A stretch of DNA of 64,000 nt, from contig CANSQL010000001.1 of the NCBI GenBank assembly GCA_947649125.1, forward strand, positions 1 through 64,000. The letters are read 5' to 3'. Positions 27,355-29,795 of the stretch are shown one piece after another. Position 1 is the first letter of the stretch. The number at the start of each line of letters is the position of its first letter. This stretch comes from an uncultured Erysipelotrichaceae bacterium. GTDB lineage: Bacteria > Bacillota_I > Bacilli_A > Erysipelotrichales > Erysipelotrichaceae. The notes under the pieces were generated by a model. The model worked only from the letters and a program-made list of their open reading frames with translations. It did no database searches and had not been told where the DNA came from. The translations under genes and the position numbers were made by a program.

Positions 27355-27771
27355 TTAAAAGGAGCCTAACAGCTCATGGTTCAATTCATTTAATAATTCA
27401 TTCGTATCCATTAAATTATAATGATTCGATAAAGCAAATATGATGATTGCATCTCTTTGTTTTTTGGCATACAGCATGGAATGATTCGCAATCGTCAGCA
27501 TACGATTTGTTTCCTCTAAATCCAATTTCATCGCAAAGGCCAACTGCAGTATTTTATCTCGTCCTGCCTGCTTCACACCTTGAAATATTTGATAAGCATA
27601 AGTACGAGGAATTTGACTTGCTTCAATAACTGCCGCCTTATCTAATTGATTATCAACTAACAGTTGATGGATATAGTCACAAAATGAGATATCCTGTATT
27701 TGTTTGATGATTTGTTCTTTTTCTGTTTCATTTGCGGATTTTAAAATCGCTTCTAAATTTTTTGTTTTCAT
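27355..27771 (-). CDS. HTH regulator divergent from a Ser/Thr kinase
   Basis: 138 residues. The central part AAVIEASQIPRTYAYQIFQGVKQAGRDKILQLAFAMKLDLEETNRML is a Cro/C1-type helix-turn-helix. A C-terminal helical extension reads RDAIIIFALSNHYNLMDTNELLNEL. Proteins of this shape occur beside membrane Ser/Thr kinases in several Bacillota, and no target is known to me. The ATG at 27771 follows AGGTGAT; the longer frame begins with the GTG of that ribosome site. It shares a 62-base promoter region with the kinase gene. Confidence 0.7.
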   Translation of the reverse strand: MKTKNLEAILKSANETEKEQIIKQIQDISFCDYIHQLLVDNQLDKAAVIEASQIPRTYAYQIFQGVKQAGRDKILQLAFAMKLDLEETNRMLTIANHSMLYAKKQRDAIIIFALSNHYNLMDTNELLNELNHELLGSF

Positions 27772-27833
27772 TTCTATCACCTGTATTATATGATATAATA
27801 TTTACCTGAATAAAACAAGGGAAAGGTGATTGT
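27772..27833. promoter_or_regulatory. Divergent promoter region, HTH / kinase
   Basis: 62 bases with TATTATATGATATAATA, which can serve as a -10 on both strands (TATAAT plus, TATCATA minus). AGGTGAT-type ribosome sites lie at both ends. The symmetry suggests shared control, perhaps by the HTH protein. Confidence 0.45.
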
Positions 27834-28910
27834 ATGCGCAAGGAGCTGTATGAAAGAGTGCTCACATTATATGAACAGCCGCAAAAATCAATTTATTTGG
27901 TTCGTCATAAGATATCAAATAAGCTGTATGCGATGAAGTATTTACAATCGGATACGGATTTATCGATGTATGAGCAGCTGCAGAAGCATCCCCATCATCA
28001 TATGGCCAATATTATTGAATGCGATCGAGATGAGGAGCATTGTTATATCATTGAGGAATATATCAACGGAACGACCTTAGAATATGAAATGAGCACCAAT
28101 CAGCTTTCTTATCTGCAGAAGCAACAGATCATGCTTGAATTATTTGAGGTATTGGAGCATTTACATACATTACAGCCGCCGATTATTCATCGCGATATAA
28201 AGCCGGCCAATATCATGCTTGAAAATCAACGGGTAAAGCTGATTGATTTTGATATAGCGCGCAATGTCATTCCCGAAAAAAATAAGGATACGCAAATAAT
28301 GGGCAGTGTCGGTTATGCACCGCCCGAACAATTCGGTTTTGCGCAAACAGATCAGCGCAGCGATGTATATGCGCTCGGAATGCTGATCAGGGAACTGTTT
28401 ACGGAGAAAAAGGGGCAGTTTCTGTATCGAATGATCATTGAAAGCTGTCTACAAATGGATCCACAGAAAAGATTTGCGAGCGTGAGTCACCTGAGAAAGG
28501 AATTTATTCGCTGTTCTCGCGGAAAACGCGTTCATCGATTGACATGGAAACAGCGTTTACAGAATTATCAAATTATCGGACTGCGCAATGATTCGGCATG
28601 GGTAAAGCTGTTTGTGGTGCTGTTTATGATAGCTGCCGTATGGGTAGCAATAGAGTCAACGACCAAAGAAAATGATCCCTATGAAAATGCCATATCGCGT
28701 CTTTTGATGGAGTTTGCGACATTTATCGTCTTTATGATGTTTTTATGGATACCGAGCAATTCCTTTCATTTATCGGAATCAATGTCGCTGTGTCGTTCAC
28801 CGTATCGAATCATTCGTATTTTCGGCTATTGCTTATTATGGTTTGTCATTGCCTGTATTATTATGTTAGCGACAGTTATGTTTTCCGGAATATTAGAACA
28901 TTTCTTGTGA
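27834..28910 (+). CDS. Membrane Ser/Thr protein kinase (Hanks type)
   Basis: 358 residues. The ATP lysine is K35 (YAMKYL). The catalytic loop is HRDIKPAN (119-126, Asp121). The metal motif is DFD (138-140) in place of the common DFG. The activation end is GSVGYAPPEQF and helix F is DQRSDVYALGMLIREL. Three hydrophobic segments follow the kinase domain near 260-278, 290-308 and 332-352, leaving no extracellular PASTA or sensor domain. The glycine-rich loop is degenerate (residues 15-25). It is divergent from a small HTH gene, so it could phosphorylate that regulator; this is inference. Confidence 0.85.
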   Translation: MRKELYERVLTLYEQPQKSIYLVRHKISNKLYAMKYLQSDTDLSMYEQLQKHPHHHMANIIECDRDEEHCYIIEEYINGTTLEYEMSTNQLSYLQKQQIMLELFEVLEHLHTLQPPIIHRDIKPANIMLENQRVKLIDFDIARNVIPEKNKDTQIMGSVGYAPPEQFGFAQTDQRSDVYALGMLIRELFTEKKGQFLYRMIIESCLQMDPQKRFASVSHLRKEFIRCSRGKRVHRLTWKQRLQNYQIIGLRNDSAWVKLFVVLFMIAAVWVAIESTTKENDPYENAISRLLMEFATFIVFMMFLWIPSNSFHLSESMSLCRSPYRIIRIFGYCLLWFVIACIIMLATVMFSGILEHFL

Positions 28911-28917
28911 TCATGAG

Positions 28918-28939
28918 GATGTCTTAGGACATCTTTTTT
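28918..28939 (+). terminator. Kinase gene terminator
   Basis: GATGTC/GACATC stem with loop TTAG, then TTTTTT. Confidence 0.85.
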
Positions 28940-28964: not shown

Positions 28965-29007
28965 GTATGCCGTGGGCATACCACAGGAAAATGTAAATCA
29001 TTATAAT
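28965..29007 (+). promoter_or_regulatory. Promoter with a perfect dyad upstream of the structured RNA
   Basis: TATAAT at 29002-29007 is preceded by no good -35. GTATGCC-GTG-GGCATAC (28965-28981), a perfect 7-bp inverted repeat, ends where the -35 would begin. It may be an operator. Confidence 0.4.
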
Positions 29008-29013
29008 TAAAGC

Positions 29014-29275
29014 TGTAATCAGAGGAGGGATGCAAAGAGGGGCGATTGTAAGCTTGAATCCTTACCCCAACGTACTCTTATCGTAATCGTTAGCTTAATC
29101 CTGTACTGTGGAAACGGCAAAAAGGCGGGTGAATCCTCCCATGCAGCTTATGTGCTTTTGCCTAAATCGGATTCAAGTGAGGGCTTTGCATAATGAATGT
29201 GCCTAATACCTTGACGCATTCATTATCAGATATATCGTTTTTTATCATTTTTCGATATATCCAATCAAGGTATCA
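29014..29275 (+). ncRNA. Structured RNA or riboswitch-like leader, class unknown
   Basis: No gene fits here but long-range pairing is dense. ATGCAAAG (29030-29037) matches CTTTGCAT (29184-29191). CTTGAATCC (29053-29061) matches GGATTCAAG (29169-29177). GGCAAAA (29116-29122) matches TTTTGCC (29156-29162). Downstream, TAATGAATG (29191-29199) matches CATTCATTA (29217-29225), ATACCTTGA (29206-29214) matches TCAAGGTAT (29265-29273), and GATATATCG (29229-29237) matches CGATATATC (29253-29261). The first three are nested like an aptamer with a closing stem, and the rest resemble an expression platform. Blocks GCTTAATCC and GGGTGAATCC recall the c-di-AMP (ydaO) element, but its conserved CAGCTAAC block is missing. 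A 6S-type RNA is another option. The boundaries are approximate. Confidence 0.6.
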
Positions 29276-29301: not shown

Positions 29302-29535
29302 ATGAAAAAGTTAGGTCGTGCCGCTTTGGCGGCAATGATGCTGTTTAGCGTTGCTGCGTGTGCCTCAGAGGGCAGCGAGGGCGATAAACAAAGTGAAAAA
29401 AAGGAAGAGGAAAAGAAAGAAGTATATGCAATGAAAGAGACGGTGCATTTAAAGGAGAGAGATGTAACCGTCAACAAAGTTACTGCATCATTTATGAGCC
29501 GATATGTTCAGTTGAAGCGGCAAAGGTGCAGTTAA
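29302..29535 (+). pseudogene. Short lipoprotein gene, probably truncated
   Basis: 77 codons. A good lipoprotein signal (LFSVAAC, Cys near 22) and a Glu/Lys-rich linker lead into VHLKERDVTVNKVTAS, which looks like the first strand of a DUF4352-like domain. The frame then ends after a Lys/Arg/Gln-rich segment without the rest of a domain. I could not restore a longer product in another frame. It is either a decayed lipoprotein or a very short secreted peptide. It lies directly downstream of the structured RNA and upstream of a clear terminator. Confidence 0.5.
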
Positions 29536-29720: not shown

Positions 29721-29795
29721 TGGTAGCGTGTACGGGACTCGAACCCGTGATGCAGCCTTGAGAGGGCTGTGGCTTAACCGCTTGCCGAACACGCC
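29721..29795 (-). tRNA. tRNA-Glu (CUC)
   Basis: A complete cloverleaf on the minus strand. The acceptor stem is GGCGTGT/ACACGCT with a terminal G-T pair. D arm GGC/GCC encloses AAGCGGTTAA. The anticodon stem CAGCC/GGCTG holds loop CTCTCAA, giving anticodon CTC (29760-29762). The T arm is ACGGG/CCCGT with TTCGAGT. The discriminator is A and CCA is encoded. The D-loop closely matches other Bacillota tRNA-Glu. It stands alone with its own promoter and terminator. Confidence 0.93.

Follow-up and report, generated by a model that had tools for sequence, protein, structure and literature searches.

Within the window, by which we mean the whole 64,000-nucleotide stretch of DNA analyzed here, a structured RNA element lies in the interval between a Ser/Thr-kinase gene and a gene for a small lipoprotein of the DUF4352 kind. 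The features of the locus are as follows:

27834-28910: Ser/Thr protein kinase gene (Pkinase, E 7e-32)
28915-28936: terminator-like hairpin belonging to the kinase gene
28965-28981: perfect dyad GTATGCC-gtg-GGCATAC, centered at about −41 from the putative transcription start
29002-29007, + strand: TATAAT, −10 box of a putative promoter, identical in the congeners G005 and G006
about 29014-29275, + strand: structured RNA element, just 3′ of TATAAT
29302-29535, + strand: small lipoprotein frame of the DUF4352 kind, downstream of the element
29721-29795, strand opposite to the lipoprotein frame: tRNA-Glu

From the TATAAT box, which is also found at the corresponding place in a third congener, G004, we infer that transcription starts near 29014, just after the box. 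No good −35 hexamer was found for this promoter. As the initial annotation had proposed, the interval 29014-29275 holds no credible gene.

The same annotation had listed six pairs of perfectly complementary arms in this interval. All six are present, and a seventh can be added, so that the interval contains seven such pairs of at least 7 nt:

29030-29037 with 29184-29191, 8 bp
29053-29061 with 29169-29177, 9 bp
29116-29122 with 29156-29162, 7 bp
29190-29199 with 29217-29226, 10 bp
29206-29214 with 29265-29273, 9 bp
29229-29237 with 29253-29261, 9 bp
29130-29136 with 29169-29175, competing with 29053-29061/29169-29177

The seven pairs of at least 7 nt compare with 1.9 expected, and 2 of 500 dinucleotide shuffles reached that number. 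For arms of at least 8 nt, five were observed against 0.46 expected, and for arms of at least 9 nt, four against 0.12, numbers that none of the 500 shuffles reached in either case. Four arm pairs of at least 9 nt were likewise reached in 0 of 487 same-size segments along the 64 kb. Because neither the shuffles nor the segments match this last count, the arms are more numerous than chance would provide. When the whole region is folded, its nested minimum-energy structure is no more stable than that of shuffled sequence (z −0.08 for the window and −0.45 for G005).

When 60 related genomes were searched at the DNA level, the element turned up in G006 (72%) and G005 (71%), both congeners. We take the G006 record to be QZED01000001.1, from bacterium c-19, and that of G005 to be CANOSP010000006.1, from an uncultured Erysipelotrichaceae bacterium MAG. 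In both, the gene order is that of the window, namely kinase, element, lipoprotein and tRNA-Glu. Since G005 and G006 are ∼97% identical, the sample of three sequences effectively represents two independent ones. The window and G005 are 84% identical over 29020-29092, 88% in the UCCUCC block, 84% over 29169-29200 and 92% over 29215-29226, compared to 43-45% in most stretches next to these conserved blocks, 37% over 29141-29168 and 49% at the third codon positions of the kinase gene. The difference between the 84-92% of the blocks and the 43-49% of neighboring and third-position sites shows that blocks of this non-coding DNA are under selection. Indeed, across the three species this non-coding 5′ region combines conservation above the neutral level with conserved pairing.

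The pairings fall into two parts. The features of the 5′ domain are:

29030-29037 with 29184-29191, + strand: P1, 8 bp, closing the 5′ domain (29030-29191), with both arms invariant in the three species
29052-29061 with 29169-29178, + strand: P2, 9-10 bp, paired in 3/3 species
29069-29091, + strand: P3, AACGUAC with GUAAUCGUU, containing a two-base bulge
29024-29028, + strand: GGAGG, which could pair with 29135-29139 as the 5′ half of a long-range pseudoknot, invariant in the three species
29135-29139, + strand: CCUCC, enclosed by P2, possible 3′ partner of GGAGG in that pseudoknot, invariant in the three species

P1 is flanked by conserved AGAGG and GAGGG, and because both of its arms are invariant it provides no covariation. 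P2 contains one compensatory change, from A-U to U-A, and one change from G-U to G-C, and in P3 20 of the 21 cells are paired across the three species, with no double changes. The UCCUCC block is kept at 7/8 amid flanking stretches that are just 45% and 37% identical, and its CCUCC could pair with the distant GGAGG to form a long-range pseudoknot. Overall, the 5′ core is mostly invariant across the three sequences and covariation is largely absent from it.

The 3′ domain comprises three further pairings:

29190-29201 with 29215-29226, + strand: S1 of a predicted 3′ pseudoknot, with 12/12 pairs in the window, 10/12 in G005 and 10/12 in G006
29206-29214 with 29265-29273, + strand: S2 of the predicted pseudoknot, with 9/9 pairs in the window, 9/9 in G005 (including G-U) and 8/9 in G006
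29229-29237 with 29253-29261, + strand: hairpin C, with a U-rich loop and 9/9 pairs in the window, 9/9 in G005 and 8/9 in G006

The arms of hairpin C, GATATATCG/CGATATATC in the window and AGAATCCAT/ATGGATTCT in G005, consist almost entirely of different letters and are fully paired in both; the folding z of this hairpin is −5.74. S2 also shows compensatory changes between the window and the congeners. Folding of the 3′ part as a whole surpasses 200 of 200 shuffles in the window (z −4.66) and 197 of 200 in G005 (z −2.28). The three downstream arm pairs had been described as interleaved so that, in the manner of a switch, they could not all form simultaneously. They do cross; however, S1, S2 and hairpin C have no bases in common, so that the three can form together as a pseudoknot and the proposed mutual exclusion does not follow. 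The 5′ arm of S2 occupies the loop of S1, directly abutting the S1 3′ arm, and we read the crossing of S1 and S2, with hairpin C inside, as the layout of an H-type pseudoknot. The element may act as a switch.

Because the blocks are conserved and the pairing in hairpin C, P2 and S2 is compensatory, the element is, as judged by comparative sequence analysis, a real, selected RNA structure. The structured RNA that had been suggested from a single sequence is thus substantiated by the conserved blocks and compensatory changes seen on comparison with two congeners.

The distribution of this RNA is narrow. When 316 genomes of the order were searched with a covariance model of the element, R1, just three loci scored high, with one copy per genome; a rerun in 41 relatives in which more candidates were scored again returned just the three known loci, as did a conserved-block pattern, with 3 mismatches allowed, across the 316 genomes. 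No further copies were found in the genome of the window, and no match to the element was found in the upstream regions of more distant DUF4352 lipoproteins. Weak R1 matches (16-24 bits) elsewhere in the order were judged from their alignments to be chance. A gapped pattern run over the genome contigs returned the two congeners and four other matches, which R1 with filters off fails to support. The kinase, the dyad, a TATAAT box and a GAGGGAGGGAT stretch are all retained in the third congener, G004, which has neither a credible R1 match nor a lipoprotein match at the corresponding locus. A transposase-like frame, identified by eye, lies in G004 at L037 770-1228, between a rhodanese-like lipoprotein gene and a helix-turn-helix gene, so the neighborhood has been rearranged in this species.

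In G005 and G006 the lipoprotein orthologues are intact proteins of 180 aa, and that of G005 matches DUF4352 (PF11611, E 2e-21). Alignment with G005 reveals a frameshifting internal deletion of ∼265 nt in the window gene, with its junction near 29488-29490, which leaves the 77-aa frame at 29302-29535. Regulation in the window species may be recently idle, since the lipoprotein gene is broken. No intrinsic-terminator-like site was found between the element and this gene.

The element precedes the lipoprotein gene, and it is a real, uncatalogued, lineage-restricted structured leader RNA. Its position, conservation and conserved pairing are the evidence for a leader, and we put the chances at about even that it acts in cis to control translation of the DUF4352 lipoprotein gene. 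In such a mechanism, transcription would start just 3′ of TATAAT and continue through the element into the lipoprotein gene. The 5′ core, made up of P1, P2, P3 and possibly the GGAGG:CCUCC pseudoknot, would sense a signal, perhaps a small ligand or a protein, and the signal would alter the ease with which the 3′ pseudoknot forms. The state of that pseudoknot, whose domain stops ∼8 nt before the likely ribosome-binding site, would in turn determine lipoprotein translation. Positions 29190-29191 are where P1 and S1 meet, and the two domains could accordingly stack or compete. We infer both the sensing of a signal by the core and the coupling between the two domains. An RNA that serves the lipoprotein gene is consistent with the lack of both an R1 match and a lipoprotein match at the G004 locus. 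Counting against a leader are the broken lipoprotein gene of the window species, the invariance of P1 and the fold energy of the whole region, which resembles that of shuffled sequence.

In G005 and G006, and strongly only there, the P2 interior AAUGGAUUUU can form an alternative helix with the 5′ arm of hairpin C. This pairing could make the RNA a transcription attenuator, in which a long helix between the hairpin C 5′ arm and the P2-domain segment, together with a U run, stops transcription unless hairpin C or the 5′ domain prevents the terminating helix from forming. Specifically, ACAAUGGAUUUU:AGAAUCCAUUGU in G006 (L003) forms 12 pairs including G-U, 10 of them Watson-Crick, and an equivalent helix of 10 pairs is present in G005 (L004), in each case with a U run directly after. 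However, the window segment has lost 6 nt, leaving a G-U-rich match of 8 pairs, the loop enclosed by the alternative helix exceeds 100 nt, and no standard terminator was found. Attenuation is thus unlikely.

The window species has retained the conserved RNA despite its broken lipoprotein gene, as would be expected of a stand-alone small RNA transcribed from the TATAAT promoter independently of that gene. We consider this rather improbable, as no terminator-like site was found between the element and the start of the gene, and the element and the gene occur together in three species while G004 shows neither at the locus.

An 18-codon frame at 29030-29086 (MQRGAIVSLNPYPNVLLS) overlaps the 5′ arms of P1 and P2, and if it were translated as a leader peptide, ribosome stalling would rearrange these stems. 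Its start, stop and length are common to all three species, and the three differences between G005 and G006 within the frame are all at third positions. However, only one base separates the GGAGG from the ATG, a spacing too short for normal initiation, the differences between the window and G005 number 3, 4 and 4 at codon positions 1, 2 and 3 and so show no bias, and the invariant stretches track the arms of P1 and P2. Translation of the frame therefore seems very unlikely, and control of lipoprotein translation by a structured leader remains the reading that we favor.

The element matches no family in Rfam 15 at the gathering score, a search that returned the tRNA alone, and searches up to E 10 with the window and G005 produced chance-level matches alone; the RNA is thus unclassified, as it was originally called. 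The suggested resemblance to the c-di-AMP element is not supported: RF00379 (at least 38 bits) is unmatched in the element and in the whole genome, whereas the B. subtilis and C. glutamicum controls match. The likeness to this (ydaO/yuaA) riboswitch consists of short resemblances such as GUGAAUCC, seen in the window only, which probably prompted the c-di-AMP idea, and the congeners, which have GUGAAUGUAUCC there, do not preserve the similar block, GTGAATCC. The raiA RNA is about 200 nt long and occurs in Bacillota, and so is similar to the element in size (∼200 nt) and host, but its model, RF03072 (at least 101.3 bits), is unmatched in the element and the genome, a weak negative as the control genomes were also silent. 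Models can miss diverged sequences, and the nested stems, purine-rich internal loop and possible long-range pseudoknot are riboswitch-like, so the element might belong to a known riboswitch or RNA class and have escaped the Rfam models by divergence. This is very improbable in view of the merely chance-level matches of the window and G005 up to E 10, the absence of c-di-AMP matches genome-wide where controls match and, though without a positive control, the absence of raiA matches.

With Bacillota riboswitches and cis-regulatory leader RNAs the element shares a structured, conserved 5′ leader between a promoter and one gene, and a core domain separate from a structured domain near the ribosome-binding site. 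It differs from them in its occurrence at one locus per genome in three species and in a 5′ core largely without covariation, and from the widespread riboswitch classes in its presence in just 3 of 316 genomes of the order. The preQ1-II riboswitches form H-type pseudoknots near ribosome-binding sites, and the element resembles these in having, a short way 5′ of the ribosome-binding site, two stems that cross and enclose a hairpin. In contrast to preQ1-II, S2 of the element does not include the likely ribosome-binding site, stopping ∼8 nt short of it, and no sequence similarity to preQ1-II-type pseudoknots was found. Our literature search returned no paper combining DUF4352 and riboswitch, and a survey of new RNAs mentions the Erysipelotrichaceae just for the idnO motif (PMC11109978). 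Only tentatively do we raise the possibility of a lineage-restricted new riboswitch class with a two-pseudoknot architecture that would sense a signal and control a DUF4352 surface lipoprotein beside a Ser/Thr kinase gene.

If the structured-leader reading is correct, the locus adds, for a family of gut bacteria that has been little studied, a leader RNA absent from the catalogues whose two-domain structure can be tested, and it offers a handle on the timing of DUF4352 lipoprotein production. It would also mean that rare RNAs present at one locus per genome are detectable by their complementary arms in a single sequence, even when the entire region shows no signal in its fold energy.

The dyad upstream of the promoter is the sole exact copy in the genome. 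Its half-sites are kept in G005, G006 and G004, and in G006 one symmetric pair has changed from C-G to T-A. It is probably an operator, and its location at about −41, at a promoter without a good −35 hexamer, looks like that of an activator site. On the minus strand at 27355-27780, divergent from the kinase gene, lies a gene for a 141-aa protein that has no Pfam match and that by eye looks like a helix-turn-helix regulator; it also adjoins the kinase gene in G004. The 141-aa protein is a candidate partner of the dyad.
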